Positions 1,358 to 18,913 of a DNA stretch of 64,000 nt are shown one piece after another. The notes beneath the pieces are model-generated. The model ran no database searches, was not told where the DNA came from, and saw only the letters and a program-made list of their open reading frames with translations. Numbering within the stretch: position 1 is the first letter of the stretch; every line of letters starts with the position of its first letter. Both the position numbers and the translations under genes were made by a program. The DNA comes from Rubrivivax sp. (lineage in GTDB: Bacteria > Pseudomonadota > Gammaproteobacteria > Burkholderiales > Burkholderiaceae_C): positions 62,001 to 126,000 of the forward strand of contig JADCGP010000008.1 of NCBI GenBank assembly GCA_020248915.1, read 5' to 3'.

Positions 1358-1367
1358 TTGTATACCA
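1358..1367 (+). promoter_or_regulatory. GntR/FCD-type operator (GTATAC core)
   Basis: TTGTATACCA is a near-perfect inverted repeat around GTATAC, the kind of sequence bound by FCD-subfamily GntR repressors. It sits on the predicted sigma-54 start site, so a bound repressor would block initiation. The likely ligand-responsive partner is the FCD regulator encoded at 18191-18913, at the end of the same gene block. Confidence 0.5.
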
Positions 1368-1388
1368 GACAGTGCACCAACCCAGCAC

Positions 1389-3212
1389 ATGGCAGCCCAG
1401 ACCCAGCACCCGGCGATCGCGCCACCGCGCACGGTGGCGGAGTGGATCACGGTCGGTGCCGACATGGCCGGGCTTTCCGCCCGGCTGCGTGCCGCTCGCA
1501 GCGCAATCGCGGCCAAGGGCGCGCCGGTCTACCTCCACGTCATCGACGAACACGGCCTCGAGGCAAGGATTGCCGAGCTGGAGGCCGCCGCCGCTGTGGC
1601 TGGGGACGCCGGAGCACTGCGTGTGCGCTGGCCGCTGTTCGGTGTGCCCTTCGTCGTCAAGGACAACATCGACGTCGCCGCCGCGCCGACCACCGCCGCC
1701 TGCCCAGCCTTCGCCTACGTGGCCGAGCGCCACGCCAACGTCGTGCGGCGGCTCCTCGATGCCGGCGCGGTGTGGCTGGCGAAGACCAACCTCGACCAGT
1801 TCGCCACCGGTCTCGTGGGCACGCGCTCGCCCTTCGGAGCACCGGCCAGCGTGGCCGCCGCCGACCGCATCAGCGGCGGCTCGAGCTCGGGCTCCGCCGT
1901 GGCGGTGGCGTGCGGCGACGTGGCGTTCTCCCTCGGCACCGACACGGCCGGTTCGGGGCGCGTGCCGGCGGCCTTCAACGGCCTCGTGGGTCTGAAGCCG
2001 ACGCCCGGAAGGGTAGGCACCAGCGGCGTCGTGCCGGCGTGTCGCTCGCTCGATTGCGTCTCGGTGTTCGCGCACTCGGTGGCCGACGCGGCCGCGGTGC
2101 TGGCAGTCATCGAGGGGGACGACGCCGACGACCCGTACAGCCACTTCGCGCCCGGCCCCGGCGCGCTGCCCACGGCGCGGCCTGGTGCGCTGCGGCTTGG
2201 CGTGCCGTCGACGCTGCCCGCGCTGCGCGACGGTTACGCCGACGCATGGCAGGCCGCCTGCGAGCACGCCCGCGCGGCCGGGCATACCCTGGTGCCGATC
2301 GACTACGAACCACTCGCCGAGGTGGCGGCGCTGCTGTACGAAGGACCCTGGGTGGCCGAGCGGCACCTGGTCGCCGGTCCGCTGCTGGCGCGCGAGCCCG
2401 CGGCGCTCGATCCGGTCGTGGCGCGCGTCATCGGACGCGCGAGCGGCTACAGCGCCGACGACGCCTTCGCCGGCCAGTACCGGCTGCGCGCGCTGGCAGC
2501 ACGCGCCGAGGCCGTGTGGTCGAGCTGTGACCTGCTGCTCGTGCCGAGCACGCCCCGCCACCCCACCTTCGCCGAACTGGCGGCCGACCCCGTAGGCGTG
2601 AACTCCGAGCTCGGCACCTTCACCAACTTCGTCAACCTGCTCGGCTGGTGCGCGCTGGCGCTGCCGGCCGGCCGCACGGCAGGCGGCCTGCCCTTCGGCG
2701 TGACGGCCATCGCGCGCGGTGGCCTCGATGCAGCGCTGGCGCACTTCGGGCAGCTCTGGGCCGGCGAGTCGCCCGCACCGGCGGGTGCGCCATGGCCTCG
2801 GGGCGCGCCGTCGCTGCCGCTGGCGGTGGTGGGCGCGCACCTGTCGGGCCTGCCCCTGAATGGGCAGCTCGCCGAACGCGGCGCGACGCTGCGCGAGCGC
2901 ACACGCACCGCGCCGCTGTACCGCCTGTACGCGCTGCCCGGCACCGTGCCGCCCAAGCCCGGCTTGCTGCGCGTGGGCGCCGGCGGCCAGGCCATCGAGG
3001 TCGAGGTCTGGGACCTGCCGCTCGAGCAGGTCGGATCCTTCCTCGCGCTCGTGCCCTCGCCGCTGGCGCTGGGCACGCTGCACCTCGAGGGCGGCCGCAA
3101 CGTCCACGGCTTCCTGTGCGAACCGCTGGCCCTCGAGGGCGCCACCGACATCAGCCACCACGGCGGCTGGCGCGCCTACCTCGCGCAGCGCGCCGCCACC
3201 GCCCAGTCCTGA
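1389..3212 (+). CDS. atzF: Allophanate hydrolase
   Basis: Hydrolyses allophanate (urea-1-carboxylate) to two ammonia and two CO2, the last step of biuret and cyanurate catabolism. Residues 1-450 are an amidase-signature domain with the Ser-cisSer-Lys triad K91, S165 (GGSSSGS) and S189 (DTAGSGR). With the ATG at 1389 these positions coincide with those I recall for AtzF, which supports this start over the longer reading frame from 1257. Residues from about 480 are the AtzF-type C-terminal domain (LNGQLAERGATL, RTRTAPLYRLYALPG, GFLCE, GGWRAYLA). Length is 607 residues, close to AtzF. The C-terminal domain separates it from generic GatA-like amidases. It is first in a same-strand block reaching 18913. 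Confidence 0.93.
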   Translation: MAAQTQHPAIAPPRTVAEWITVGADMAGLSARLRAARSAIAAKGAPVYLHVIDEHGLEARIAELEAAAAVAGDAGALRVRWPLFGVPFVVKDNIDVAAAPTTAACPAFAYVAERHANVVRRLLDAGAVWLAKTNLDQFATGLVGTRSPFGAPASVAAADRISGGSSSGSAVAVACGDVAFSLGTDTAGSGRVPAAFNGLVGLKPTPGRVGTSGVVPACRSLDCVSVFAHSVADAAAVLAVIEGDDADDPYSHFAPGPGALPTARPGALRLGVPSTLPALRDGYADAWQAACEHARAAGHTLVPIDYEPLAEVAALLYEGPWVAERHLVAGPLLAREPAALDPVVARVIGRASGYSADDAFAGQYRLRALAARAEAVWSSCDLLLVPSTPRHPTFAELAADPVGVNSELGTFTNFVNLLGWCALALPAGRTAGGLPFGVTAIARGGLDAALAHFGQLWAGESPAPAGAPWPRGAPSLPLAVVGAHLSGLPLNGQLAERGATLRERTRTAPLYRLYALPGTVPPKPGLLRVGAGGQAIEVEVWDLPLEQVGSFLALVPSPLALGTLHLEGGRNVHGFLCEPLALEGATDISHHGGWRAYLAQRAATAQS

Positions 3213-3246
3213 CCTCGCACCGATACCCCCCAAGGAGGACCTGTCC

Positions 3247-4869
3247 ATGGACCGTCGCCAGTTCGTCAACGCCGGTGCCGCCGCACCGCTGGCCATCGCG
3301 GCCTCGCCCCTCGTCGTGCCGCTGACCGCACGCGCCCAGGCGCGCCCGAAGGACGTGCTCGTGGTCGCCAACGAGTTCGGCCCTAACTCGCTGGACATCC
3401 AGACCATCGGGGCCAACCGCCCCGCCTACGGCGTGAGCTGGCTCTGCTACGACCGCCTGATGACGTACGGCAAGCGCACGCTGCCCGACGGGCGCGTCAT
3501 GTACGACCGCAACAAGCTTGAGCCCGAGCTCGCCGAGAGCTGGCAGATGGCACCGGACGGCATGTCCGTCACGTTCAAGCTGCGCAAGAACGCGAAGTTC
3601 CACGACGGCACGCCGGTGACGGCCAAGGACGTCAAGTGGAGCTTCGACCGCGCGGTCAGCGTCGGCGGCTTCGCGACCTTCCAGATGGGCGCGGGCTCGC
3701 TGGAGAAGCCCGAGCAGTTCATCGTCGTCGACGACCACACTTTCCGCGTCGTCTTCCTCCGCAAGGACAAGCTGACGATGAACAACATCGCCGTGCCGGT
3801 GCCCTGCATCTTCAACAGCGAGCTCGTCAAGAAGAACGCGACCCCGCAGGATCCCTGGGGGCTGGCCTGGACGCGCAACAACGTCGCCGGCGGCGGCGCC
3901 TACAAGGTCGAGGCCTTCCGCCCGGGCCAGGAGATCGTCTACGTCCGCAACGACGACTGGAAGAGCGGCCCGCTGCCCAAGCTGCGGCGCATCGTGCAGC
4001 GCGAGGTGCCCAACGCCGGCAACCGGCGCGCGCTGCTGCTCAAGGGCGACATCGACATGACCTACGACATGCCGCCGAAGGACTTCTCGGAGATGGCCAG
4101 GGAGGGCGGCGGCGTCAAGGTGACGACGATGCCGATCGAGAACGCCATGTTCTACGTCGGCATGAACGTCACCAGGCCGCCATTCGACAACGTCAAGATC
4201 CGCCAGGCGGTGGCGTTCGCGATCCCCTACGACAAGATCATGGACGCCGCGCTGTACGGGCGCGGCGCCAAGCTCTACGGCGCCGCCAGCAGCAAGGTCG
4301 GCACGACGGCCTGGCCGCAGCCCACCGGCTACCGCACCGACATCGCCCGCGCCAAGGCGTTGATGGCCGAGGCCGGTGCCGCGGCAGGCTTCGAGACCAC
4401 GCTGTCGATCGACCTCGGCGGCGCGACGGTCGGCGAGCCGGCGGCGATCCTGATCCAGGAGTCGCTCGCGCAGATCGGCATCAAGGCGCAGATCAACAAG
4501 ATCCCTGGCGCCACCTGGCGCGCCGCGCTGCTGAAGAAGGACATGCCGTTGATCCTCAACCGCTTCGGCGGCTGGCTGGACTTCCCGGAGTACTTCTTCT
4601 ACTGGTGCTACCACGGCCAGAACGCCGTCTTCAACACGATGAGCTACCAGAACGCGAAGCTCGACAAGGTGATCACCAACGCGCGCTTCGCCGAGAGCAA
4701 GGCCCTGTACGACAGCTTCGTGCGAGAAATGATCCAGATCGCCTATGACGAGGTGCCCCGCATCCCGCTGTTCCAGCCGAATCAGGACGTGGCCATGCAG
4801 AGCAACGTGCAGGGCTACATGTACTGGTTCCACCTGCAGCCCGACTACCGGCAGCTGAGCAAGGTCTGA
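3247..4869 (+). CDS. Oligopeptide-type ABC transporter substrate-binding protein
   Basis: A family 5 (DppA/OppA-like) extracytoplasmic solute-binding protein of 540 residues. It starts with an RR-containing signal peptide (MDRRQFVNAGAAAPLAIA, cleavage likely near TARAQA). Family features include ELAESWQMAPDGMSVTFKLR, KFHDGTPVTAKDVKWSFDRA and IRQAVAFAIPYDKI. A strong ribosome site (AAGGAGG) lies 8 bases before the ATG at 3247. It sits between atzF and atzG, far from the matching permease/ATPase genes at 14193-18131, which carry no binding protein of their own; I infer that they work together. The ligand is unknown. The operon context suggests a ureide or nitrogen-rich amide rather than a peptide. 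Confidence 0.9.
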   Translation: MDRRQFVNAGAAAPLAIAASPLVVPLTARAQARPKDVLVVANEFGPNSLDIQTIGANRPAYGVSWLCYDRLMTYGKRTLPDGRVMYDRNKLEPELAESWQMAPDGMSVTFKLRKNAKFHDGTPVTAKDVKWSFDRAVSVGGFATFQMGAGSLEKPEQFIVVDDHTFRVVFLRKDKLTMNNIAVPVPCIFNSELVKKNATPQDPWGLAWTRNNVAGGGAYKVEAFRPGQEIVYVRNDDWKSGPLPKLRRIVQREVPNAGNRRALLLKGDIDMTYDMPPKDFSEMAREGGGVKVTTMPIENAMFYVGMNVTRPPFDNVKIRQAVAFAIPYDKIMDAALYGRGAKLYGAASSKVGTTAWPQPTGYRTDIARAKALMAEAGAAAGFETTLSIDLGGATVGEPAAILIQESLAQIGIKAQINKIPGATWRAALLKKDMPLILNRFGGWLDFPEYFFYWCYHGQNAVFNTMSYQNAKLDKVITNARFAESKALYDSFVREMIQIAYDEVPRIPLFQPNQDVAMQSNVQGYMYWFHLQPDYRQLSKV

Positions 4870-4886
4870 GCGGAAGGGGCACGACG

Positions 4887-5129
4887 ATGGACTGGGACGC
4901 CTACGTCGATGCGCAGGCCGCGCTGCTCGGGCTGCCGATCGCCCCAGAGCACCGGCCCGGCGTGGTGCGCTACCTGCAGCTGGCGGCCGGCATGGCGCCG
5001 CGGGTGACCGACTTCGCGCTGGCACCCGGCGACGAGTCGGGCAACGTCTTCGTGCCGGTGGCACCCGGCTCTGCGCCTGGCGCCGTGACGGGCCCGCCGT
5101 CCGGTCCGGCTCCCGAGGGCGCCGCGTGA
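4887..5129 (+). CDS. atzG: AtzG-like subunit of carboxybiuret hydrolase (DUF4089)
   Basis: An 80-residue GatC-like protein ([18 protein letters not shown], then [16 protein letters not shown]) of the DUF4089/AtzG type. Such proteins form a stable complex with an AtzE amidase and are needed for its folding and activity. The first 60 residues are helical and conserved; the last 20 are Pro/Gly-rich. It has a good ribosome site (GGAAGGGG) and ends in a 4-base GTGA overlap with atzE, so the two partners are translationally coupled. The homologous HpxX works beside HpxY in oxalurate breakdown, which is the main alternative. Confidence 0.85.
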
Positions 5130-6460
5130 GCGCCGTTGCCAACGTCCGCGCCGCGCTGGCCCGCATCGAGGCCAGCGACGCCCGCGTCAACGCCTTCACC
5201 GCGGTGCTGGCCGAGCGCGCGCTTGCGCGCGCCGAGGTCGTGGACGCGAGGGACATGGGCGGCCCGCTCGCCGGCCTGCCGTTCGCGGTGAAGAACATGT
5301 TCGACCTCGCGGGCCTGCCGACGCTGGCCGGCTCGCGGATCGAGCGCGACGCCGCGCCGGCCGCGCGCGACGCCATGCTGGTGCGCCGGCTCGAGGCGGC
5401 CGGCGCGGTGTGCGTGGGCGCGCTCAACATGGACGAGTACGCCTACGGCTTCACCACCGAGAACACCCACTACGGCCCGACGCGCAATCCGCACGACCTC
5501 GAGCGCCTGAGCGGCGGCTCCTCCGGCGGCTCGGCGGCTGCGGTGGCCGCAGGCCAGGTGTCGCTCGCGCTCGGCTCCGATACCAACGGCTCGATCCGCG
5601 TGCCGGCCTCGCTGTGCGGCGTGTTCGGACTCAAGCCCACCTTCGGGAGGTTGTCGCGGGCGGGCACTTATCCCTTCGTCGCCAGCCTGGACACTCTCGG
5701 GCCGTTTGCACGCAGCGTGCGCGGCCTGGCGGCGGCCTACGATGCGATGCAGGGCGTCGACCTCGACGACCCGGCACAGCAGCGCCGCCCGGTCGAGCCG
5801 ACGCTGTCCCTGCTCGAGCGCGGCACGGAGGGCCTCCGCATCGGAGTGCTCGGCGGCTGGTTCCGGCGCATGGCGCAGCCCGCTGCGCTGCAGGCGGTGG
5901 AACGGATGGCCGCCTCGCTGGGTGCCGATCGCCTGGTCGAGTGGCCCGAGGTCGACCGCGCGCGCACCGCGGCCTTCCTGATCACCAATGCCGAGGGCGC
6001 GGCGCTGCACCTGCCCGACCTGAAGCGGCGCGCCCACGACTTCGAGCCGTTGTCGCGCGACCGCTTCCTCGCCGGCGCGCTGCTGCCCGCGGCGTGGGTC
6101 GTGCAGTCGCAGCGGGTCCGCCATTGGTTCGCGCGCCAGGTGGCCGCCTCGTTCGAGACCGTCGATGTGCTGCTCGCGCCGGCCACGCCGTGCACCGCGC
6201 CGCCGATCGGCACGGAGTGGCTCGAGATCGATGGCACGAAGCTGCCCGCGCGGGCGAGCATGGGCTTGCTGACGCAGCCGGTGTCGTGCATCGGGCTGCC
6301 GGTGGTGACGGTGCCGCGCTGGCATACCGACCCGGCCGCGCCGCACCTGCCGATCGGCGTGCAGGTGATTGCCGCGCCGTGGCGCGAAGACCTGGCACTG
6401 CGCGTCGCCTTCGCGCTCGAGAGCATGGCCGTCACGCACGCGCCGGTGGCGGCCCTGTGA
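5126..6460 (+). CDS. atzE: 1-Carboxybiuret hydrolase catalytic subunit (AtzE-like amidase)
   Basis: An amidase-signature enzyme of 444 residues. Its Ser-cisSer-Lys triad is K56 ([10 protein letters not shown]), S132 (GGSSGGS) and S156 (DTNGSIRVP). It most resembles AtzE, which deaminates 1-carboxybiuret to urea-1,3-dicarboxylate and needs AtzG. The GTG start overlaps the atzG stop by 4 bases. The tandem atzG-atzE-atzH order matches the cyanurate pathway and also the hpxX-Y-Z genes of oxalurate use. The neighbouring allophanate and biuret hydrolases favour the carboxybiuret reading. The substrate remains inferred. Confidence 0.83.
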
Positions 6461-6465
6461 CCGGG

Positions 6466-6873
6466 ATGGCTGCCATGGACATCAACCTGCCCGACGTGCA
6501 CGCCGAGGTCGCGGCCGTGTTCGCGCGCTACGAGCAGGCACTCGTGCGCAACGAGGTCGAGGCACTCGACCAGCTGTTCTGGTCCAGCCCGCACACCGTG
6601 CGCTACGGCGTCGCCGAGAACCTGGTGGGCATCGAGGCCATCCGGGCCTTTCGCGCCGCGCGCTCGCCCCAGGGGCTGATGCGCGCGCTGGCGCACACCG
6701 TGATCACCACCTACGGCCGCGACTTCGCCACCGCGATGACCGAGTTCCGCCGCGAAGGCGGCACCAGGCTCGGCCGCCAGAGCCAGACGTGGGTGCGCCT
6801 GCCGGGCGCGCCGCACGGCTGGTGCGTCGTGGCGGCCCATGTTTCCTTGATCGATCCCCCACCCCAACCCTGA
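6466..6873 (+). CDS. atzH: AtzH-like protein (DUF3225, NTF2 fold)
   Basis: A 135-residue SnoaL/NTF2-like protein ([20 protein letters not shown], then [14 protein letters not shown] and [14 protein letters not shown]) of the DUF3225 family, which includes AtzH and HpxZ. AtzH is described as acting on the 1,3-dicarboxyurea made by AtzEG to give allophanate, avoiding a dead end. I chose the ATG at 6466. An alternative GTG at 6457 overlaps the atzE stop and would reproduce the GTGA coupling seen at the atzG/atzE junction. The set AtzE-AtzG-AtzH-AtzF would carry carboxybiuret to ammonia and CO2. Confidence 0.82.
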
Positions 6874-6892
6874 CCCCGCGAGAGGACTCCCG

Positions 6893-8035
6893 ATGAGCCT
6901 TGACGACCTCCAACCCTGCCCGCCCCACGACGCCACGCGTCGCCACCTGATCGCCGGCGGCGCGCTCGCCGGCGCCTCGCTCGTGCTGCCGGGCGCGCTG
7001 CGCAGCGCCTTCGCGCAGGCCCCCATCACGGTGGGCATCATCTACGTCGGCCCGCGCGACGACTTCGGCTACAACCAGGCGCACGCCGAGGCGGCGGCGC
7101 AGCTGAAGAAGCTGCCCGGCGTCAAGCTCGTCGAGGAGGAGAACGTCCCCGAGACGCAGGCCGTGCAGAAGACGATGCAGGGCATGATCGCGCAGGACGG
7201 CGCGACGCTGCTGTTCCCCACCAGCTTCGGCTACTTCGACCCGCACATGCTTGCCATCGCGGGCCGCAACCCGAAGGTGCGCTTCAGCCACTGCGGCGGC
7301 CTGTGGACCAAGGGCAAGCACCCCGACAACACCGGCAGCTTCTTCGGCTACATCGACGAGGCGCAGTACCTCAACGGCGTCACCGCCGGCCACATGAGCA
7401 AGAGCAAGAAGCTCGGCTTCGTGGCGGCCAAGCCGATCCCGCAGGTGCTGCGCAACATCAACGCCTTCACGATGGGCGCCCGCTCGGTCGACCCGAAGAT
7501 CACCACCACGGTCATCTTCACCGGCGACTGGAGCATGCCGGTCAAGGAGGCCGAGGCCACCAACAGCCTGGCCGACCAGGGTGTCGACGTCTTCACCTGT
7601 CACGTCGACGGCCCCAAGGTGGTGATGGAGACGGCGGCCAAGCGCGGCCGCATGGTCTGCGGCTATCACGCCAGCCAGGCCAAGCTCGCACCGCAGGCCT
7701 ACCTGACCGGCGCCGAGTGGAACTGGCTCACTGCCTACACGTCGATCCTCGACGCGGCGCGCACCGGCAAGCCGCATCCCAACTTCGTGCGCGGCGGCCT
7801 GAAGGACGGCTTCGTCAAGAGCTCGCCCTACGGCGCGATGGTGGGCGAGGGCGCACGCAGGAACGCCGAGGACGTGCGCAAGAGGATGATGGCCGGCGCG
7901 TTCGACATCTTCGGTGGCGAACTGAAGGACAACACCGGCAAGGTGGTCATCCCCAAGGGCAAGGTCTTCAAGCAGACCGACGTCGAGCTCGAGGGCATGA
8001 ACTACCTGGTCGAGGGCGTGATCGGCAAGGTGTGA
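6893..8035 (+). CDS. BMP-family (PnrA-like) ABC transporter substrate-binding protein
   Basis: A 380-residue periplasmic binding protein of the basic-membrane-protein/PnrA family, usually associated with nucleosides or purines. Its twin-arginine-like signal peptide has TRRHLIAGG, a hydrophobic stretch and likely cleavage at AFAQA. Family features are VGIIYVGPRDDFGYNQAH, TGSFFGYIDEAQYLNG and NSLADQGVDVFTCHVDGP. It is followed by two RbsC-like permeases and, two genes later, a double-domain ATPase. Together these form a complete importer. The ligand is not determinable, but the operon suggests biuret, triuret or a related ureide. Confidence 0.9.
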   Translation: MSLDDLQPCPPHDATRRHLIAGGALAGASLVLPGALRSAFAQAPITVGIIYVGPRDDFGYNQAHAEAAAQLKKLPGVKLVEEENVPETQAVQKTMQGMIAQDGATLLFPTSFGYFDPHMLAIAGRNPKVRFSHCGGLWTKGKHPDNTGSFFGYIDEAQYLNGVTAGHMSKSKKLGFVAAKPIPQVLRNINAFTMGARSVDPKITTTVIFTGDWSMPVKEAEATNSLADQGVDVFTCHVDGPKVVMETAAKRGRMVCGYHASQAKLAPQAYLTGAEWNWLTAYTSILDAARTGKPHPNFVRGGLKDGFVKSSPYGAMVGEGARRNAEDVRKRMMAGAFDIFGGELKDNTGKVVIPKGKVFKQTDVELEGMNYLVEGVIGKV

Positions 8036-8065
8036 TGGTCGCCCCCCGAAGCGCCTCCCGCGTCT

Positions 8066-8081
8066 CGCCCCCGGCGGGGCG
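8066..8081 (+). terminator. GC hairpin between binding-protein and permease genes
   Basis: CGCCCC-CGGC-GGGGCG is a perfect 6-bp stem in the 112-base gap between the BMP gene and the first permease. No T tract follows. Such hairpins after binding-protein genes often act as partial terminators or RNA-stability elements that raise binding protein over permease. I see no gene in the gap. Confidence 0.35.
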
Positions 8082-8147
8082 CGGCCAGCGGCCCGGCGCA
8101 GCCCGTGCGACGGCGGCCGCTCGGTCGCCGGCGCACATCGCTTCGCC

Positions 8148-9239
8148 ATGAGTCGACTCGCCACCACCGCCGAGTCGCTGGCCCTGCCGTTGCTGGCCCT
8201 GGGCGGCGGGCTGCTGCTGTTCGGCGGCTTCGTGTGGCTCGGCGGGCACAGCCCGCTGCAGGCCTGGGCGCTGCTGTTCCGCGGCGCCTTCGGCGACGCG
8301 TTCTCGCTGCAGAACACGCTGGTGCGCGCCGCGCCGTTGATGCTCACCGCGCTGGCGGTGGCTTTGCCGGCGCGGGCCGGGCTCACGGTGATCGGCGGCG
8401 AGGGCGCCCTCGTGCTCGGCGGGCTGGCCGCCGCCACGCTGCCGCTCGCGCTGCCGCTGCCGGCCGGCGCGCCGGGCACGGCGCTGCTGCTGCTGGCCGC
8501 GGCGCTGGCCGGCGGGGCGTGGATCGCCCTGGCGGGCTGGCTGCGCCAGTGGCGCGGGGTCAACGAGACGATCTCCAGCCTGCTGCTCGGCTACATCGCG
8601 ATCGCGCTCTTCAAGCACTTCGTCGAGGGACCGCTGCGCGACCCGGCCAGCCTGAACAAGCCGAGCACGCTGCCGCTGGAGGAGAGCCTGCGCATCGGCA
8701 CCATCGCGTTCGGCGAGACGGTGACCGACGTGCACTGGGGGCTCGCGTTCGGCATGGTGGCCTGCGTGCTGGCGGCAGCCTGGCTCGGCCTGACGACGCA
8801 CGGCTTCGCGACGCGCGTCGTCGGCGGCAACCCTCGCGCGGCGCGGCTGGTCGGGCTGCCGGCAACGCGGCTGATCGTGGTCGCGTGCGCGCTGGGCGGC
8901 GCGGCCGCCGGTGTGGCCGGCGGCATCGAGGTGGCTGCAGTGCACACGGCGGCCAATGCGTCGCTGATCGTCGGCCTGGGCTACACCGGCATCCTGGTGA
9001 GCTTCGTCGCCCGCCACCAGCCGCTGGCCATCATCCCGGTGTCCATCCTGTTCGGCGGCTTCCTCGCTGCGGGCAGCCTGCTGCAGCGGCGCATGGGCCT
9101 GCCCGACGCCTCGGTGCAGGTGCTGATGGGCTTCTGCTTCGTGCTGATCCTGGCCAGCGAGGCCTTGCGCGGCCGGCTGGGCGAGCTCTTCGTGCTGCGC
9201 CGGGCGCCGGTAGGCGCGCCCGTGGGGGCCCGCGCATGA
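8148..9239 (+). CDS. ABC transporter permease (YufP/BPD_transp_2 type)
   Basis: A 363-residue polytopic membrane protein of the RbsC-like branched-chain/nucleoside permease family. Hydrophobic segments span most of the sequence, and the conserved GEGALVLGGLAAATLPLAL and WRGVNETISSLLLGYIA regions are typical of nucleoside importers. Its stop overlaps the next permease start (ATGA), indicating translational coupling and a heterodimeric channel. It would partner the BMP-type binding protein and the double ATPase at 11919-13496. Confidence 0.88.
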   Translation: MSRLATTAESLALPLLALGGGLLLFGGFVWLGGHSPLQAWALLFRGAFGDAFSLQNTLVRAAPLMLTALAVALPARAGLTVIGGEGALVLGGLAAATLPLALPLPAGAPGTALLLLAAALAGGAWIALAGWLRQWRGVNETISSLLLGYIAIALFKHFVEGPLRDPASLNKPSTLPLEESLRIGTIAFGETVTDVHWGLAFGMVACVLAAAWLGLTTHGFATRVVGGNPRAARLVGLPATRLIVVACALGGAAAGVAGGIEVAAVHTAANASLIVGLGYTGILVSFVARHQPLAIIPVSILFGGFLAAGSLLQRRMGLPDASVQVLMGFCFVLILASEALRGRLGELFVLRRAPVGAPVGARA

Positions 9240-10177: not shown

Positions 10178-10187
10178 GGTACGGACG

Positions 10188-11216: not shown

Positions 11217-11908
11217 TGGCCACGATCGCCGCCGACCCCTATCCCTGGCCTTTCGACGGCGATCTGCGTCCGGGCAACACGGCGCTCGTCGTGATCGACA
11301 TGCAGACCGACTTCTGCGGCGTCGGCGGCTACGTCGACAAGATGGGCTACGACCTGTCGCTGACGAGGGCCCCGATCGGCCCGATCTCGCGCCTGCTGGC
11401 GGCCTTCCGCGGCGGCGGCTTCCACGTCATCCACACCCGCGAAGGCCACCGGCCCGACCTGTCGGACCTGCCGGCCAACAAGCGCTGGCGCTCGCAACGC
11501 ATCGGTGCCGGCATCGGCGACCCCGGTCCCTGCGGCCGCATCCTGGTGCGTGGCGAGCCGGGCTGGGAAGTTATCCCAGAGGTCGCGCCGCTGCCGGCAG
11601 AGGTGGTGATCGACAAACCCGGCAAGGGAAGCTTCTGTGCCACCGACCTCGAGCTCGTGCTGCGCACGCGCGGCATCCGCAACCTGGTGCTGACCGGCAT
11701 CACCACCGACGTCTGCGTGCACACCACGATGCGCGAGGCCAACGACCGCGGCTTCGAGTGCCTGATCGTCGAGGACGGCACCGGTGCCACCGACCTCGGC
11801 AACCACCTGGCCGCGTTGAAGATGGTGACGATGCAGGGCGGCGTGTTCGGCGCCGTGGCGCCTTCGACGGCCGTCCTGGCCGGCCTGGATGGCCTGCGCG
11901 CCGCATGA
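11216..11908 (+). CDS. biuH: Biuret amidohydrolase
   Basis: An isochorismatase-like cysteine hydrolase of 230 residues that should convert biuret to allophanate and ammonia. Every catalytic residue known for Rhizobium BiuH (D36, K142, C175, Q215) is present at a constant offset of eight: D28 (VVIDMQTD), K134 (VIDKPGKG), C167 (GITTDVC) and Q207 (VTMQGG). The substrate-pocket stretches [10 protein letters not shown] and [17 protein letters not shown] also agree with what I recall of BiuH. The ATG at 11216 overlaps the amiF stop by one base. Its product is the substrate of AtzF at the head of the operon. Confidence 0.9.
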
Positions 11909-11918
11909 GGACCGCCGC

Positions 11919-13496
11919 GTGACCGCGCTTCGCCTCGAGACCTATGCGCTGGGCAAGCGCTTCGGGGGCTTTGCCGCGCTGGAGGACGTGTCGATCGTCG
12001 TACAGCCAGGCACCGTCCACGCCCTGCTGGGCGAGAACGGCGCGGGCAAGAGCACGCTGGTCAAGTGCGTGGCCGGTTACCAGCGGCCCGACGCCGGCGC
12101 GGTGCTGATCAACGGCCGAGAGGTGGACATCGGCTCGCCGGGCGCCGCCCGGGCGCTCGGCATCGGCATGGTGTACCAACACTTCACCGTCGTGCCGGGC
12201 ATGACCGTGGCCGAGAACCTGCTGATCGCCCGCGGCGAGTTGCCGGCGGTGATCGACTGGCGGCGCGTGCGCGCCGAACTGGCCGACTTCATGGCCGCGG
12301 CGCCTTTCCGTCTCGACCTGGACGCGACGCCGGCCCAGCTGTCGGCCGGCGAGAAGCAGAAGCTCGAAATCCTCAAGCAGCTGTACCTGCGGCCGCGGTT
12401 GCTGATCCTCGACGAGCCGACCTCCGTGCTCACCCCGCAGGAGGCCGACGAGGTGCTCGGCGCGCTGCGCGAGCGCGCCCACTCCGGGCAGACCACCGTG
12501 GTGCTGATCACGCACAAGTTCCGCGAGGTGATGGCCTTCGCCGACGATGTGAGCGTGTTGCGGCGCGGCCGCCTGGCGGGCGCCTGTGCGGTGGCGGCCA
12601 CCGGCCCGGCGGCCCTCGGGGCCCTGATGGTCGGCGACGACCCGCGCGCCCGCGGCGAGGCGACGTCCAGCGAGCCGCTGCCGCGCGCCGCCGCCTCACG
12701 AGGCGAGGTGCGCCTGAGCCTGCGCGGCCTCGTCGTCGCCGGGGACCGCGGGCAGGCCGCCGTCGACGGCGTCGACCTCGACGTGCACGGAGGCGAGATC
12801 GTCGGCATCGCCGGCGTGGCGGGCAACGGGCAGCGCGAGCTGATGGAGGCACTGGCCGGCCAGCGCGACCGCGCCGCGGGCAGCGTCACCGTCTCGGGCC
12901 GGCCCTACCGGGCGACGCGGGCGCAGAACCGCGCCCTGCGGGTGCGCGGCCTGCCGGAGGAGCCGCTGCGCAACGGCTGCGTGGCGCAGATGTCGGTGGC
13001 GTCCAACATCGGGCTGCGCAGCTTCGACGTGGCGCCGTTCGCGCGCGCGGGCTTCCTCGTGCCTGGGGCGCTGGAGAAGCAGGCGCGCGAGCTCATTGCC
13101 ACCTTCCGTGTGCGCACGCAGGGCGAGGGTGCGCCGATCGGCTCGCTGTCGGGCGGCAACGTGCAGCGCGCCGTGCTGGCGCGTGAGCTGTCCGAGCCGG
13201 CCGACGTGCTGCTCGTGTCCAACCCCGCCTTCGGCCTCGACTTCACCGCGGTGGCCGATGTCCACATGCGCCTGATCGCTGCCCGCGACCGGGGCAGTGC
13301 GGTGCTGATGGTCAGCGAGGACCTCGACGAACTGCTGCAGGTGGCCGACCGTGTCCTGGTGATGAGCGGCGGGCGCTTCGTGCACGAGTGCGCCGCGGCG
13401 GGCGCCGACCGGCTGGACATCGGTCGCCACATGGGCGGCGGTGCGCACCATGCGGCGCCGGCTTCCGGGCCAGCGGACCCGAGGACACTTCATTGA
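11919..13496 (+). CDS. Double-domain ABC ATPase of the BMP-type importer
   Basis: A 525-residue protein with two fused nucleotide-binding domains, as in sugar/nucleoside importers (RbsA/YufO type). The N-terminal domain is complete, with Walker [10 protein letters not shown] (residues 38-46), [15 protein letters not shown] and Walker [12 protein letters not shown]. The second domain has the degenerate [14 protein letters not shown] and [15 protein letters not shown] but a weak Walker B (VLLVSNPAF), normal for this family. I chose the GTG at 11919 because an upstream ATG at 11889 would overlap biuH by 20 bases. Partners are the permeases at 8148 and 9236. Confidence 0.9.
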
Positions 13497-14191
13497 ACAC
13501 CACCGGCATGGTCACCGACGCGCGGCCTTTCGAATTCGTGCTTGCTGCGGGCCACGCGGCACTGGTGGTCATCGACATGCAGCGCGACTTCATCGAGCCC
13601 GATGGCTTCGGCGCCGCGCTGGGCAACGACGTGCGCCACCTGGCCGCGGCGATCGGCCCGACCCGCGCGCTGCTGGAGGCCTGGCGTGCGCGCGGCTGGC
13701 CGGTGGTGCATACGCGCGAGTCGCACGCCCCGGACCTCTCGGACTGCCCGCCCTCCAAGCGCGACCGCGGGCAGCCGGCGCTGCGCATCGGCGACCCGGG
13801 CCCGATGGGCCGGCTGCTGGTGCGCGGCGAGCCCGGCTGCGAGATCGTGCCGGCGCTGGCCCCGGTGCCGGGCGAGGCCGTCATCGACAAGCCCGGCAAG
13901 GGCGCCTTCCACGCCACGCCGCTCGAAGCCGTGCTGCGCGGCCTGGGCGTCACCCAGCTCGTGATCGCGGGCGTCACCACCGAGGTCTGCGTGCAGACGA
14001 CCATGCGAGAGGCCAACGACCGCGGCTTCGACTGCCTGCTGGTGGAGGAGGCCACCGCCAGCTACTTCCCCGAGTTCAAGCGCGCGACGATCGACATGAT
14101 CGTGGCCCAGGGCGGCATCGTCGGCTGGGCGGCACCGCTGGCCTCGGTGCTCGCGGCGCTGCCGGCGCCGGCGGCCGGCGCGGGAGGCTGA
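13493..14191 (+). CDS. Isochorismatase-like cysteine hydrolase, candidate triuret hydrolase
   Basis: A paralogue of the biuH product in the same operon. Numbered from the ATG at 13508, the catalytic set is conserved: D23 (VVIDMQRD), K128 (VIDKPGKG), C161 (GVTTEVC) and Q201 (IVAQGG). The substrate loop differs ([19 protein letters not shown] instead of the [11 protein letters not shown] motif), so it probably accepts a related but different amide. Triuret hydrolase (TrtA) belongs to this family and yields carboxybiuret, which would explain why AtzEGH is here without AtzD. The TTG at 13493 overlaps the ATPase stop and has GAGGAC upstream. ATG 13508 is the alternative start. Confidence 0.72.
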
Positions 14192-14192
14192 C

Positions 14193-15206
14193 GTGGGCCG
14201 CATGGTCCTCAGGCGCCTGCTCTCGGCGCTGCCCAACCTGCTCGGCGTGGTCGTGATCACGTTCCTGCTGACGCGGGCGATCCCGGGCGACCCGGCCGCC
14301 TACTTCGCGGGCGGCGCAGCCACGCAGGAGGCAGTGGAGCAGGTGCGCAAGTCGCTCGGCCTCGACAAGCCGCTGGTCGAGCAGTTCTTCGTGTATCTGG
14401 GCCAGCTGGCCCGCGGCGACCTTGGCCTGTCGCTGACCACCGGCCAGCCGGTGCGCGACGAACTGCTGCGCCGGCTGCCGGCCTCGCTGGAGGTGGTGCT
14501 GCTTGCGCTGCTGCTGTCCTGCGCGGTGGCGCTGCCGATGGGCGTGCTGTCGGCAGTGCGGCCGGGATCCTGGTTCGACCAGCTGGCGCGGCTCGTCACC
14601 ACGGCCGGCGTCTCGCTGCCGGTCTTCTTCACCGGCCTGCTGCTCGCCTACGTGTTCTACTTCCTGCTCGGCTGGGCGCCGTCGCCGCTGGGCCGGCTCG
14701 ACCCGATGTGGTCGCCGCCGCCGCAGGTCACGGGCCTGTACCTGGTCGACGCGGCGATCGCGCGCGACCCGGGCCTGTGGTGGGCCAGCTTCAAGCAGCT
14801 CATCCTCCCGGTGGCGACGATGGCCATCTTCGTGATGGCGCCGATCGCCCGCATGACGCGGGCATCGATGATCGCCGTGCTGTCGGCCGACTTCGTCCGC
14901 ACCGCGCGCGCCTCCGGCCTGACGCCCGGCACGGTGCTCGTGCGCTACGCGCTGCGCAACGCGCTGCTGCCGGTGGTGACGACGCTCGGCATGGTGTTCG
15001 GCTTCATGATCGGCAGCTCGGTCATCATCGAGAAGGTGTTCGGCTGGCCGGGCGTGGGCAGCTACGCGATCGACGCGCTGACGGCCAGCGACTACGCGCC
15101 CGTGCAGGGCTTCGTGCTCGCGATGGGCGTGCTGTTCGTGCTGCTGAACCTGCTGGTCGACCTTCTGTACGTGCTGATCGACCCGCGGGTCACGATCGAG
15201 GGCTGA
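14193..15206 (+). CDS. Oligopeptide-type ABC permease (DppB-like)
   Basis: A 337-residue inner-membrane permease of the DppB/OppB family. It has the typical start (VLRRLLSALPNLLGVVVITF, RAIPGDPA) and C-terminal cytoplasmic loop ([20 protein letters not shown], then GWPGVGSYAIDAL). A GTG start at 14193 has GGAGG five bases upstream; ATG 14202 is an alternative. It heads the dppBCDF-like quartet. Its binding protein is probably the family 5 protein at 3247. Confidence 0.88.
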   Translation: MGRMVLRRLLSALPNLLGVVVITFLLTRAIPGDPAAYFAGGAATQEAVEQVRKSLGLDKPLVEQFFVYLGQLARGDLGLSLTTGQPVRDELLRRLPASLEVVLLALLLSCAVALPMGVLSAVRPGSWFDQLARLVTTAGVSLPVFFTGLLLAYVFYFLLGWAPSPLGRLDPMWSPPPQVTGLYLVDAAIARDPGLWWASFKQLILPVATMAIFVMAPIARMTRASMIAVLSADFVRTARASGLTPGTVLVRYALRNALLPVVTTLGMVFGFMIGSSVIIEKVFGWPGVGSYAIDALTASDYAPVQGFVLAMGVLFVLLNLLVDLLYVLIDPRVTIEG

Positions 15207-15209
15207 GCG

Positions 15210-16133
15210 ATGAGTGCCTCGCTGCCTGCAGTCCCGCCGGCCCCGCCGGCGCCGCCGATCCCGCCCTCGGCCCCGAGGCCGACGGCGCGCGGCGGCACCT
15301 GGGCCCACGTGCGCCACGTGCTGGCGGACAACCCTGTGACCATCGCCGCGGCGGCGCTGTTCGTCGGCTTCGTGCTGCTCGCGCTGTTCGGCCCCTGGCT
15401 GGTGCCGCACGACCCGCTGGCCAGCAATGCGTCGGTGGCCCTGCAGCCGCCGAGCGCGTCGCACTGGTTCGGCACCGACGCGCTCGGGCGCGACATCTTC
15501 TCGCGCGTCGTCGTCGCCACGCGTCTCGACCTGGGCATCGCCTTCGCCGCGGTGCTGCTGAGCTTCGTGATCGGCATGCCGCTCGGGCTGGCGGCGGGCT
15601 TCTTCGGCGGCTGGTGGGACCGCATCGTCAGCCGCCTGGCCGACACCATCATGGCCTTTCCGCTGTTCGTGCTGGCGATGGGCATCGTCGCCGCGCTGGG
15701 CAACACGGTGGGCAACATCGTGCTGGCCACCGCCGTCATCAACCTGCCGTTCTACATCCGCGTCGCCCGCGCCGAGGCCAACGTGCGCCGCAACGCCGGC
15801 TGGGTCGAGGCCGCGCGGCTGTCGGGCAACGGCGAGGCGCGCATCCTGGCGCTGCACCTGTTCCCGAACGCGCTGCCGCCGGCCATGGTGCAGGTGAGCC
15901 TGAACATGGGCTGGGCGATCCTCAACGCCGCCGGCCTGAGCTTCATCGGCCTGGGCGTGCGACCGCCGACGCCGGAGTGGGGGATCCTGGTGGCCGAGGG
16001 GGCGCAGTTCATCGTCAGCGGCGAGTGGTGGGTCAGCCTGTTCCCGGGCCTGGTGCTGATGCTCGCGGTGTTCACCTTCAACCTGCTCGGAGACGCGCTG
16101 CGCGACATATTCGACCCCCGGAGGCGCACGTGA
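15210..16133 (+). CDS. Oligopeptide-type ABC permease (DppC-like)
   Basis: A 307-residue partner permease of the DppC/OppC family. A Pro/Ala-rich N-terminal tail of about 30 residues precedes the first helix (NPVTIAAAALFVGFVLLALF). The family signature HWFGTDALGRDIFSRVV and the loop RNAGWVEAARLSGNGEARI are clear. It starts 3 bases after dppB and ends in a GTGA overlap with the next ATPase gene. Confidence 0.88.
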   Translation: MSASLPAVPPAPPAPPIPPSAPRPTARGGTWAHVRHVLADNPVTIAAAALFVGFVLLALFGPWLVPHDPLASNASVALQPPSASHWFGTDALGRDIFSRVVVATRLDLGIAFAAVLLSFVIGMPLGLAAGFFGGWWDRIVSRLADTIMAFPLFVLAMGIVAALGNTVGNIVLATAVINLPFYIRVARAEANVRRNAGWVEAARLSGNGEARILALHLFPNALPPAMVQVSLNMGWAILNAAGLSFIGLGVRPPTPEWGILVAEGAQFIVSGEWWVSLFPGLVLMLAVFTFNLLGDALRDIFDPRRRT

Positions 16134-17164
16134 GCGCCGCGTCCCAGCCCCCGCTGCTCGACGTGCGGGGCTTCTGCCTGGAGTTCCGTACCCGCGGCGG
16201 CACCGTGCGCGCGCTCGAAGGCGTGGACCTCGTGCTGCACAAGGGTGAGATCGTCGGTCTGGTCGGCGAGAGCGGCTCGGGCAAGAGCGTGCTCAGCTAT
16301 GCGCTGCTGGGCATCAGCGACCGCGCCGCGCGCGTGACCGGCGGCAGCGCCACCTTCGGTGGCCTGGACCTGCTGCAGGCCGACGCCCGCACGCTGGCGG
16401 ACCTGCGCGGGCGCGAGATTTCGATGATCTTCCAGAGCCCGCGCACGGCGCTCAACCCGATCCGCCCCGTGGGCCTGCAGATCGAGGACGTGCTGCGCCG
16501 CCACGCCGCAGCCACCGGCCCCGACCTCGGCCGCAGCCTGCGCGAGCGCGCCGTGCAGGCGCTGCGCGAGGTGGCCATCGCCGACCCCGAGCGGCGCGTG
16601 CACGCCTACCCGTTCGAGCTCTCGGGCGGGATGTGCCAGCGCGTGATGATCGCGCTGGCGCTGGCCTGCCGCCCGAGCCTGCTGATCGCCGACGAGCCCA
16701 CCACGGGCCTGGACGTCACGACGCAGGCCGCGGTCATGGACCTGATCGCCGGCCTCGCGCGCGAGCGCCAGATGGCCACGCTGTTCATCACGCACGACCT
16801 GGCGCTGGCCGCCGAGCATTGCGACCGCATCGTCGTCATGCACGCCGGGCACGCGGTGGAGCGCGCCCCGACGCGGGCGCTGTTCGCGGCGCCGCGCCAT
16901 CCCTACACCGCGCGCCTGATCGGCAGCACGCCCGACGCCAGCAGCCGCGTCGACAGCCTGGTGCCGGTGCCCGGCAGCCTGCCCGACCTGCGCCGCGCCG
17001 ACCTGCCAGCCTGTCGCTTCGCCGAGCGCTGCGATCGCGCCCAGGTGCGGTGCCGCAGCGAGCGGCCGCGGATCGACCCGGCCGACCTGCATGGCGTGGC
17101 CTGCTGGCACCCGCTCGCAGCTGCAGCCGCTGCGCCCATGCCATCGGAGCCCGCCCATGGCTGA
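16130..17164 (+). CDS. Oligopeptide-type ABC ATPase (DppD-like)
   Basis: A 344-residue ATPase with Walker A GESGSGKS, ABC signature LSGGMCQRV, Walker B LLIADEPTTGLDV and the C-terminal oligopeptide-transporter extension containing three cysteines (ACRFAERCDRAQVRC). It belongs to the DppD/OppD half of a heterodimeric motor. The GTG start at 16130 overlaps the dppC stop by 4 bases, and the end overlaps the next ATPase gene by 8 bases. Confidence 0.9.
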   Translation: MSAASQPPLLDVRGFCLEFRTRGGTVRALEGVDLVLHKGEIVGLVGESGSGKSVLSYALLGISDRAARVTGGSATFGGLDLLQADARTLADLRGREISMIFQSPRTALNPIRPVGLQIEDVLRRHAAATGPDLGRSLRERAVQALREVAIADPERRVHAYPFELSGGMCQRVMIALALACRPSLLIADEPTTGLDVTTQAAVMDLIAGLARERQMATLFITHDLALAAEHCDRIVVMHAGHAVERAPTRALFAAPRHPYTARLIGSTPDASSRVDSLVPVPGSLPDLRRADLPACRFAERCDRAQVRCRSERPRIDPADLHGVACWHPLAAAAAAPMPSEPAHG

Positions 17165-18131
17165 GCCGCTGCTTCAGGTGGAGCGGTTGTCGCGCCGCTT
17201 CGACGTCGCCGGCCGGCGGGGCGCGAAGCTGCACGCGGTGGACGACGTGTCGCTCGCCATCGCCGCGGGCGAGAGCCTCGGGCTGGTCGGGGAGTCGGGC
17301 TGCGGCAAGAGCACGCTGGTGCGCCTGCTGGCGCGCCTGCTCGACGCGAGCGCGGGCCGCATCCTGTTCGAGGGCCAGGACCTGGCCGAACTGCCCGCCC
17401 GGCGCTTCGCGCGGCACCCGCTGCGCGCGGAGATTCAGATGGTCTTCCAGGACCCGACCGACAGCCTGAACCCTCGCCACACCGCGCGCGACACGATCGG
17501 CGAGCCGCTGCGCCTGCTCGGCGGCCTGCAGGGCCGCGCCGCCGACGAGCGGGTGGACGAGGTGGCGAGCCAGGTCGGGCTGCCGCTCGAGCTGCTCGGG
17601 CGCTTTCCGCACCAGCTCTCCGGCGGGCAGAAGGCGCGTGTGGGTATCGCCCGCGCGCTGGCGGTGCGCCCGCGGCTGCTGATCCTCGACGAACCCACCG
17701 CGGCGCTCGACGTCTCGGTGCAGGCGGTGGTGCTGCAGTTGCTGGCCCGGCTGCGCTCCGAGCTGGGGCTGGCCTACCTCTTCGTTTCGCACGACCTGAA
17801 CGTCGTGCGGCTGCTCACCGACCGCGTGGCCGTGATGTACCTGGGCAGGCTGGTGGAGGTGGGGCCGTCGGAGCAGGTGTTCCGCGCGCCGGGCCACCCG
17901 TACACGCAGGCCCTGGTGTCGGCCATCCCGGGCCAGGGCCCGCGCGTGCGCCTGAGCGGCGAGATCTCGAGCCCGATCGACCCGCCGCCGCAGGTGTGCC
18001 GCTTCCACGGCCGCTGCCCGCGCGGGGAGGATCGCTGCGCGCGCGAGATGCCGGCGCTGGCGATGCGGCCCGCCGCCGCCGCGCAGCCGCCCGCAGCGCC
18101 GCAGTGGGTGGCCTGCCACTTCGCCCGCTGA
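17157..18131 (+). CDS. Oligopeptide-type ABC ATPase (DppF-like)
   Basis: The second motor subunit, 324 residues, with Walker [10 protein letters not shown], signature [15 protein letters not shown], Walker [14 protein letters not shown] and the C-terminal [14 protein letters not shown] cysteine motif common to DppF/OppF. The ATG at 17157 lies inside the end of dppD (8-base overlap). It closes the transporter quartet. The regulator gene starts 60 bases downstream. Confidence 0.9.
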
Positions 18132-18190
18132 CACACCGTGCCGCAACGCATCCCCATCGGGCACGTGGTGGCACCGCCGGACGCCGAGGC

Positions 18191-18913
18191 ATGATCCAGG
18201 GCGTGACGCCCCCCGCGCTGCCGCGCAGCCCTCGCGCCCACCTCGCCGACAAGGTCTACGCCCGGCTCAAGGCCGAGCTGCACGACTTCCACTGGGTCAG
18301 CGGCGACAGGCTCTCGGAGGCCGAGATCGGCCAGCGCCTGGGCGTCAGCCGCACGCCGGTGCGCGAGGCGCTGTTCCGGCTGCGCAACGAGGGCTTCCTC
18401 GAGGTCGAGAGCAAGACCGGCTGGTTCGTCCGCCCGATCGACTTCGCGCTGCTCGACCAGCTGTACGACCTTCGCATCGTGCTCGAGCTGGCCGCGGTGA
18501 GCCGGCTCGTCGCGCGGCGCCAGGACCCGCCCGCGCTCGACGAGCTGAAGGCCGCCTGGCTGGTGCCGGCCGCCGAACGGCTGGCCGATCCCAAGGCCGT
18601 CGGCGAACTGGACGAGCGCTTCCACGCCGCGCTGGTGGCGGCCACCGGCAACGCCGAGATGGCGCGCGTGCACCAGGAAGCAACGGACCGCATCCGAATC
18701 GTGCGGCGGCTCGACTTCACGCGGCCCGACCGCGTCGAGGCCACCTACCACGAGCACGCCAAGATCCTGCGCGCCGTGCTGCAGCGCAAGCTCGACGCGG
18801 CCCAGATGCTGCTGAAGACGCACATCGAGCAGAGCAAGGTGGAGGTGCGCAAGATCACGCTGCACCAGCTGCACGAGGCGCGGCAGAGGGGGGCGCCTGC
18901 GGCGGCGCGGTGA
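18191..18913 (+). CDS. GntR-family regulator, FCD subfamily
   Basis: A 240-residue repressor-type protein. Residues 18-85 form the GntR winged helix (LADKVYARLKAELHDF, LSEAEIGQRLGVSRTPVREA). The C-terminal helical FCD domain has the expected metal/ligand histidines (ELDERFHAALVAATGN, HEHAKILRAVL, HIEQSK). It is the last gene of the block and the only regulator in it. I infer it senses a pathway intermediate and binds the GTATAC operator at 1358-1367. No second copy of that operator is visible directly upstream of this gene. Confidence 0.9.
   Translation: MIQGVTPPALPRSPRAHLADKVYARLKAELHDFHWVSGDRLSEAEIGQRLGVSRTPVREALFRLRNEGFLEVESKTGWFVRPIDFALLDQLYDLRIVLELAAVSRLVARRQDPPALDELKAAWLVPAAERLADPKAVGELDERFHAALVAATGNAEMARVHQEATDRIRIVRRLDFTRPDRVEATYHEHAKILRAVLQRKLDAAQMLLKTHIEQSKVEVRKITLHQLHEARQRGAPAAAR

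Follow-up and report, generated by a model that had tools for sequence, protein, structure and literature searches.

The window analyzed here, that is, the whole stretch of 64,000 nucleotides from Rubrivivax sp. (assembly GCA_020248915.1, contig JADCGP010000008.1, positions 62,001 to 126,000), revealed a ureide cluster of 17 genes at positions 1389–18913, all on the plus strand, which is in our judgement likely to be an operon that scavenges nitrogen from triuret and biuret and consists of two modules (D and T), with 1-carboxybiuret shared by two enzymatic arms. Scans of its open reading frames (ORFs) and of the window with Pfam and NCBIfam models identified, next to the hydrolases, two complete importers, one of the BMP/AtzT type and one of the Opp/Dpp type, each with a binding protein, two permeases, and ATPase domains. 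Among the 16 junctions within the cluster, the widest spans 112 bases in front of permease A, and at least five are overlaps. The original prediction, made from the nucleotide sequence alone, had placed all the parts it named on one strand between the same limits, with mostly overlapping or close junctions, and this description was confirmed by the family-model scans.

The cluster encodes two hydrolases of the isochorismatase fold. The protein encoded at 11216–11908 scored above the cut-off of the biuret amidohydrolase (BiuH) model NF050097 (417 vs. 370 bits) and had BiuH 6azo as its best PDB match (404 bits; triuret hydrolase TrtA 215 bits), while the protein encoded at 13508–14191 stayed below the cut-off (251 bits) and matched best to Herbaspirillum TrtA 6xix (301 bits; best BiuH 211 bits). 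The latter was compared with TrtA and BiuH sequences, and as its alignment with 6xix is free of gaps, the published positions (residues named in PMC7948467) transfer directly. All 14 of them are kept (D24, F29, F35, N41, E72, K129, K132, A134, T158, E160, C162, Y187, Q202, and I205), including the catalytic triad D24, K129, and C162 and the substrate residues, and the six residues that discriminate TrtA from BiuH by consensus (F35, N41, A134, E160, Y187, and I205) are TrtA-like throughout. The first hydrolase harbors BiuH-type residues at 13 of 13 positions, of which numbers 47, 147, 171, 175, and 200 are our own counterparts of TrtA positions. Thus, by sequence, the second hydrolase is a triuret hydrolase TrtA; another BiuH is ruled out by the score below the BiuH cut-off and by TrtA residues throughout. 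The product of TrtA is 1-carboxybiuret, which has a half-life of c. 20 min and then turns into biuret, and AtzEG is named as a known enzyme for carboxybiuret (Tassoulas et al. 2020, PMC7948467). The route from triuret through carboxybiuret to allophanate and ammonia, as suggested in the original prediction, is therefore sound, and as chemistry already published; in this genome it is supported by the TrtA residues of the second hydrolase and by the failure to find AtzD.

AtzF keeps K91, S165, and S189. Ser189 is the nucleophile (Esquirol et al. 2018, PMC6219798). The closest solved structure to AtzE was 6c62, the AtzE of strain ADP (542 bits, the next match 212 bits), no HpxY being among the matches, and its best-matching named relatives were records from Rubrivivax, Piscinibacter, and other Burkholderiales. 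Together with the adjoining AtzG, this AtzE-family amidase has the sequence make-up of a 1-carboxybiuret hydrolase AtzEG. In AtzH, all nine pocket residues named in PMC6219798 are kept (Y22, R46, R63, R66, R73, F94, R96, Q106, and Q108). On this basis, the BMP-type importer, and perhaps the Opp-type importer too, would take up triuret and biuret, and TrtA would convert triuret into 1-carboxybiuret and ammonia. In one arm, AtzEG would deaminate 1-carboxybiuret to 1,3-dicarboxyurea, from which AtzH would form allophanate; in the other, 1-carboxybiuret would spontaneously lose CO2 to give biuret, which BiuH would deaminate, along with imported biuret, again to allophanate. Finally, AtzF would release ammonia and CO2. 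The two arms would not necessarily be redundant, as AtzEGH may take carboxybiuret before it decays and BiuH may catch the leak. Elsewhere, the genome carries a urease gene, by which urea escaping from allophanate or dicarboxyurea might still be recovered.

According to a different explanation, the cluster is the lower part of the cyanuric acid pathway, with AtzD elsewhere or lost. AtzGEHF indeed corresponds to the lower pathway of pADP-1, AtzD occurs in or beside some TrtA operons (L072, L154, L168, and L219; L and G numbers denote loci and genomes), and it was found in 11 of the 26 AtzE-bearing genomes of the order sample described below. However, AtzD of the cyanuric acid operon atzDGEHF was found nowhere in the window's genome (99.01% complete, 54 contigs): neither PF09663, searched in the window and in its genome, nor pADP-1 AtzD as a query resulted in a match. 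PF09663 was silent in 14 control genomes, too, but the same search of 200 genomes from the order gave matches in 16, so that the model works, and an AtzD hidden elsewhere in the genome was rejected. The original prediction had reported AtzD as absent and had proposed a genome-wide search, which was run and left the observation standing. It had also assumed AtzD to be the normal source of substrate for AtzEGHF, which does not hold according to Esquirol et al. 2018. As TrtA would also supply the same product, this explanation, already disfavored, appears highly improbable.

Linkage of TrtA to AtzE was counted in several sets of genomes, where loci cut by contig ends were scored as misses and a hydrolase was assigned to TrtA or BiuH according to which of the two proteins of the window it matched better. 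In the family sample (200 genomes; E-values up to 1e-110 for AtzE and up to 1e-60 for TrtA/BiuH-type hydrolases), AtzE was identified in 52 genomes and a TrtA/BiuH-type hydrolase in 56. Of the 51 loci fetched, 34 had TrtA no more than 12 kb away from AtzE (35/52 including the window), and 2/51 had AtzD at such a distance. The order sample (200 genomes; E-values up to 1e-50 for the hydrolases and up to 1e-100 for AtzE) revealed a TrtA/BiuH-type hydrolase in 34, AtzE in 26, and the AtzD family in 16 genomes, one of these AtzD matches (G180) being a fragment; among the 25 loci fetched here, 10 had TrtA at up to 12 kb from AtzE (11/26 with the window), and 2/25 had AtzD in that range. Among 398 genomes of the phylum, 34 had AtzE, and seven of these had TrtA within 10 kb, as judged by coordinates. 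By arithmetic, an unlinked pair is expected within 12 kb in c. 0.5% of 4.5-Mb genomes. A spacing of 239–279 bases on one strand separates the matches to TrtA and AtzE in six genomes; this leaves room for atzG, though a search for AtzG there was negative. Of the 51 AtzE-bearing genomes of the family sample besides that of the window, 29 have both TrtA and BiuH at no more than 12 kb from AtzE, so that the combination is not the unusual one it had been taken for in the original prediction.

Named genomes showed TrtA within 12 kb of AtzE in 34 of 80 loci and AtzD in none of the 80, as far as the loci reach; these loci were selected for likeness to the AtzE of the window and overlap with the other genome sets, so that the counts are not additive. 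The TrtA-linked loci include those of Variovorax soli, V. guangxiensis, V. paradoxus, Rhizobacter sp. Root404, Curvibacter gracilis, Pseudorhodoferax, Ramlibacter, Aquincola, Polaromonas, Azospirillum, and metagenome-assembled genomes (MAGs) of Rubrivivax and Piscinibacter. The locus of V. ginsengisoli carries BiuH and ends before the expected TrtA. As a side observation, the cyanobacterial records L265, L266, L272, and L309 encode homologs of AtzE (58–59%) and AtzG (39–45%), with no match to TrtA, BiuH, or AtzH in the locus.

With regard to its organization, module D has the order atzF-SBP5-atzG-atzE-atzH-oppBCDF-gntR (SBP5, solute-binding protein family 5) and is uninterrupted in L103, L108, and L111 and, up to the contig end, in L104; among these four, the short atzG was detected in L111 only. 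L234 displays module D without T between its genes and without atzF in the locus. Cassette T (BMP-permA-permB-(amiF)-biuH-ATPase-trtA) occupies, as assembled, positions 6893–14191 of the window, between atzH and oppB of module D, starting 19 bases behind atzH and ending one base before oppB (listed starts). Among 90 complete T cassettes (duplicates between named and other loci retained), 46 showed this order without amiF, 39 with amiF between permB and biuH, and five deviated. The same nesting of T in D was found in L151 (G435), L173 (G587), L176 (G612), and L177 (G630, no AtzH found), and also in the named loci L232, L235, L239, L240, and L244, the right ends of which are cut; thus, a layout unique to the window was rejected. 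L241 and L242 harbor T genes downstream of an intact module D.

In a tree of six module D proteins (22 rows), seven rows from the window's family, namely the window, L151, L173, L176, L177, L172 (seen up to BMP), and L171 (contig ends at atzH), formed one clade (100/100), next to which the uninterrupted modules L103, L104, L108, and L111 were placed (84/88). In the trees of six cassette T proteins, the window grouped with L173 and L176, and L151 grouped with L177 and L180, the two groups being far apart, as were the window and L151 in a tree with these two cassettes as sole representatives; for the larger trees, the rows were hand-picked (the window and 41 of 59 cassettes), and the label nestedD also covers L209 (Opp upstream of atzG), which was not counted as nested. 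Forcing the T cassettes of the window and L151 into one clade cost 136 log units (AU p 8e-7), and holding all six cassettes of the two groups together cost 193 log units (p 2e-59), so that both arrangements were rejected; the groups were chosen by layout, with the trees already known when the tests were made, and L180 of the six-row test has no Opp genes. Since two distant T cassettes occupy one slot of related D modules, either T entered this slot twice or one T replaced another in place, with unequal rates as a caveat, and T would represent a concrete case of a cassette exchanged within operons.

Another explanation is that two pathways share one operon, T for triuret and biuret and D (Opp, AtzGEH, and AtzF) for a non-carboxybiuret substrate of its own, which meet only at allophanate. 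In its favor, module D brings its own importer and regulator, Bradyrhizobium loci that combine AtzE, AtzH, and Opp genes showed no match to TrtA above 200 bits, and TrtA operons without AtzGE exist, with other AtzH-family proteins. Furthermore, four genomes (G175, G138, G152, and G062) have AtzE and matched neither a TrtA-type hydrolase nor AtzD, so that AtzGEH has another feed there, and one of them, G175 (89% complete), carries the whole module D (L111). The latter two findings weigh directly against the triuret and biuret operon as preferred here, as do the 17 of 52 AtzE-bearing genomes of the family sample that lack TrtA within 12 kb (some contigs end early), the mostly unlinked AtzD of the order sample, in which a TrtA/BiuH-type hydrolase was present in 17 of the 26 AtzE-bearing genomes, and the presence of two importers and a formamidase, for which this reading would still have to account. 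On the other hand, AtzGEH is linked to T without SBP5 or OppBCD in many relatives (Variovorax and others), and the order atzF-atzGEH-T-gntR without SBP5 or Opp in L233 and L238, and in L236 to its right end, would be expected if AtzGEH serves T. We thus regard separate pathways as rather unlikely.

A further objection comes from purine degradation, as AtzEGH might be an oxalurate system of the HpxXYZ kind, in which case the cluster would degrade several purine end products and not triuret as such. AtzH scored above the cut-off of an NCBI model that is named HpxZ, and both the AtzE and the AtzH family have members that act in oxalurate breakdown (HpxXYZ). All nine pocket residues are found in Klebsiella HpxZ as well, and in the AtzE tree the HpxY of Klebsiella clusters with three TrtA-linked AtzE proteins (L079, L080, and L087; SH-aLRT 98), so that work on carboxybiuret and on oxalurate is not separable by sequence, linkage, or family. 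In addition, AtzT, a relative of the BMP-type binding protein, binds guanine (PMC6834077). The ties to the Hpx proteins count against the triuret and biuret operon as well, yet AtzE is nearest to the AtzE of strain ADP, though among matches that included no HpxY, none of the 17 genes matched HpxW or an allantoate-type family in the Pfam and NCBIfam scans, and TrtA neighbors AtzE in most AtzE-bearing genomes of the family sample (35/52, as above). Altogether, an oxalurate system seems quite improbable.

A tree of 99 AtzH-family proteins showed that 13 proteins from loci without AtzE, 12 of them with TrtA beside, form one deep clade (SH-aLRT 100, branch 1.16, based on few columns), outside of which the AtzH of the window is located. 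Y22 and R46 are kept in all 13, and R66 is replaced by T, S, or V. Six further AtzH proteins labelled TrtA-only by a distance rule fell outside this clade, with L077, L163, and L168 forming their own group (97). We propose this deep clade as a candidate for TrtB, the decarboxylase of carboxybiuret described in published work. In the AtzE tree, pADP-1 AtzE was placed in a clade of 22 rows from the family of the window (SH-aLRT 99), of which 12 are TrtA-linked, eight unlinked or cut, and two AtzD-linked. A joined tree of AtzE, AtzH, and AtzF (37 of 90 AtzE rows, hand-picked; AtzF in 24) put pADP-1 into a clade of 25 rows (96/98), 15 of them TrtA-linked. The nearest relative of the pADP-1 set was a chromosomal atzD-atzG-atzE-atzH set in G652 (L213, region 13220–14590), from the window's own family, followed by a TrtA-linked set (98/61, not firm). 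From the AtzD analysis, in the tree of which the rows L062, L068, and L069 are artefacts of translation in the wrong orientation, only the AtzD neighborhoods and the pair of pADP-1 (L001) and L213 were used.

AtzD inside or beside TrtA operons was observed in L219, L154, L072, and L168. In L219 (G614), AtzD lies between AtzH and a T cassette with TrtA, which puts both carboxybiuret makers into one operon, AtzE being present there as two matches; in L072 (G171, 1.2–12.5 kb), the TrtA operon reads atzF-atzH-T-gntR-atzD, with AtzD at its end and no close AtzE. The placement of pADP-1 would suit a swap of AtzD for TrtA. Tentatively, and with more doubt than confidence, we suggest that AtzGEH in Burkholderiales served triuret before it served cyanuric acid and still does so more commonly, with TrtA feeding 1-carboxybiuret to AtzEG, and that the pADP-1 operon arose within this lineage when AtzD replaced TrtA. 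In this scenario, AtzH would have two arms, one acting on dicarboxyurea and the deep sister clade acting as carboxybiuret decarboxylase in TrtA operons without AtzE, T would be exchanged within operons, and the formamidase would complete the breakdown of N-formylurea after the ureide hydrolases have cut it to formamide. Our confidence in it was lowered slightly because of the frequency of mostly unlinked AtzD in the AtzE-bearing genomes of the order.

Regarding transport, the BMP proteins of 90 TrtA loci (more than 50% identical to that of the window) were compared to the ligand residues of AtzT, including its aromatic sandwich (PMC6834077). Y45 is present in 88, and W194 and S97 in all 90, whereas Q replaces E165 in 88 and H and D replace N218 and N220, respectively, in 90. 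Nine other BMP proteins (27–41% identity, that of pADP-1 excluded) revealed Q in two (L217 and L218, TrtA loci), and E in six, while one was unlike. H218/D220 was rejected as a signature confined to T, being common to other AtzT-type proteins, and E165Q was weakened as a signature of T by three proteins with E in TrtA loci (L087, L153, and L157). The pocket would fit a planar ureide ligand. Complete T cassettes numbered 65 in loci with AtzE and 25 in loci without it, and the formamidase gene amiF was found in 33 and 9 of these, respectively. Formylurea is the best of the poor substrates of TrtA (0.3%, PMC7948467); at a guess, its cleavage could, once CO2 is lost, leave formamide for AmiF to break down. 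In the literature searched, we did not meet formylurea together with a formamidase.

In the region up to 450 bases upstream of the AtzF match, GTATAC was detected in 37 of 97 AtzF-led loci (at least three pairs being the same genome twice), as against c. 2 expected (0.02 per region, from 157 sites in 3.97 Mb). Twenty of the 37 sites read TTGTATACAA, TTGTATACCA, or TGGTATACCA, and the window carries CCTTGTATACCAGA. As a GntR/FCD gene terminates many of the AtzF-led operons, its product is proposed as the regulator, and this terminal protein probably controls the operon via the candidate site TTGTATACCA before atzF.

Several of these features were compared to known systems. The trtA-biuH-atzF genes of Herbaspirillum sp. 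BH-1 and Rhizobium leguminosarum (Tassoulas et al. 2020, PMC7948467) share TrtA, BiuH, and AtzF with the window and follow the same chemistry, from triuret via carboxybiuret and biuret to allophanate, mostly independent of AtzD. That system pairs TrtA with the decarboxylase TrtB, whereas the operon described here adds AtzGEH, a second importer, and a formamidase; AtzEG is named there for the TrtA product, and the passages available report no linkage. A similar layout, atzF-ABC-atzG-atzE-atzH-ABC-amidase, was described for Rhodoferax, Variovorax, Rhizobacter, Leptothrix, and Methylibium (Esquirol et al. 2018, PMC6219798), in which atzF precedes atzGEH on one strand, about half of the clusters have ABC genes in between, and ABC genes and an 'amidase' lie downstream. 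Their function was left open in that work; the matching genes in Variovorax, Rhizobacter, and relatives in our analysis encode BiuH, TrtA, and, in part, a formamidase, and we infer that those clusters are the very same loci as the ones analyzed here. The operon atzDGEHF of pADP-1 has AtzG, AtzE (60% identical), AtzH, and AtzF in common with the window. It differs in several respects: AtzD takes the place of TrtA, a search of its 12.3-kb stretch gave neither BiuH nor TrtA, the regulator is of the LysR type and not GntR, and AtzF is the last and not the first gene. Finally, contigs of floodplain ammonia oxidizers (trtA-biuH-trtB-atzF-bmpA-nupABC, PMC12625717) combine a BMP-type importer with TrtA, BiuH, and AtzF; unlike in the window, no AtzGE is reported in the part of that source available. 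Thus, the triuret chemistry (2020), the parts, and partly the layout (2018, without an assigned function) are already known. Added here are the identity of TrtA, its link to AtzGEH counted over samples, which we did not meet in print among open-licence papers, the build from two modules with exchanged cassettes, the GTATAC operator candidate, and the placement of pADP-1 AtzE. The features are listed in Table 1.

Table 1. Features of the ureide cluster and its left border (window coordinates)
Feature	Position	Strand	Basis and remarks
tRNA-Pro (GGG)	969..1045	+	ARAGORN, Rfam; outside the operon, left border of the variable segment; kept in two congeners
candidate operator CCTTGTATACCAGA	1356..1369		near-palindrome around GTATAC 1360–1365; ends 19 bases before atzF start
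atzF, allophanate hydrolase	1389..3212	+	TIGR02713 717 bits, cut-off 511
solute-binding protein family 5 (Opp/Dpp-type importer), module D	3247..4869	+	PF00496
atzG, 1-carboxybiuret hydrolase small subunit	4887..5129	+	PF13318 59.8 bits
atzE, 1-carboxybiuret hydrolase amidase subunit	5126..6460	+	NF006631 688 bits, cut-off 461; best PDB 6c62
atzH, 1,3-dicarboxyurea decarboxylating hydrolase family (NTF2 fold)	6466..6873	+	NF033625 199.5 bits, cut-off 135
BMP-family binding protein related to AtzT, opening gene of cassette T	6893..8035	+	Pfam scan, AtzT residue comparison
permease A, BMP-type importer	8148..9239	+	PF02653
permease B, BMP-type importer	9236..10177	+	Pfam/NCBIfam scans
amiF, formamidase	10188..11216	+	NF009803 542 bits, cut-off 406
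biuH, biuret amidohydrolase	11216..11908 (start possibly 11213)	+	NF050097 417 bits, cut-off 370; residues 13/13
ATPase, BMP-type importer, two ABC stretches	11889..13496	+	family scan
trtA, triuret hydrolase (by sequence), last gene of cassette T	13508..14191 (start possibly 13493)	+	PDB 6xix; residues 14/14
oppB-type permease, module D resumes	14193..15206	+	family scan
oppC-type permease	15210..16133	+	family scan
oppD-type ATPase	16130..17164	+	family scans
oppF-type ATPase	17157..18131 (start possibly 17091)	+	family scan
GntR/FCD-family regulator	18191..18913 (start possibly 18104)	+	family scans; proposed operator binder

To the left of the cluster, an HU/IHF-type gene, a MerR gene, and the tRNA-Pro gene form a stretch that is conserved in two congeners of the family sample, in which no match to AtzE or TrtA was found. 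In one of them (G761), the backbone after tRNA-Pro resumes at c. 34.9 kb of the window, with c. 4.6 kb of other DNA in between. The cluster is thus part of a variable segment of c. 34 kb (1046–34936). At this site, genes for a metallo-beta-lactamase-type hydrolase, an ArsR-type regulator, and a sulfate-transporter-like protein were recognized by eye in G761. An integrated island with att sites at tRNA-Pro was rejected, as no second copy of the last 32 bases of the tRNA gene (up to three mismatches) was found in the window and the stretch 986–1110 has no exact repeat of 13 or more bases up to 36.5 kb. On the minus strand, a gene for a leucine-rich-repeat protein of 319 aa (19132–20091) adjoins the operon, and genes for a Rieske oxygenase, a cytochrome P450, and a class-V aminotransferase follow in a row at 22874–26570.

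If AtzEG acts on the product of TrtA, triuret could explain many of the orphan atzGEH clusters left open in 2018, and where the lower half of a well-known pesticide-degradation pathway came from could be put to the test. Whole cassettes swapped inside an operon would be illustrated by a concrete case. Variovorax, Rhizobacter, Rubrivivax, and their kin would then be users of triuret and biuret, which would bear on the fate of impurities in urea fertilizer.

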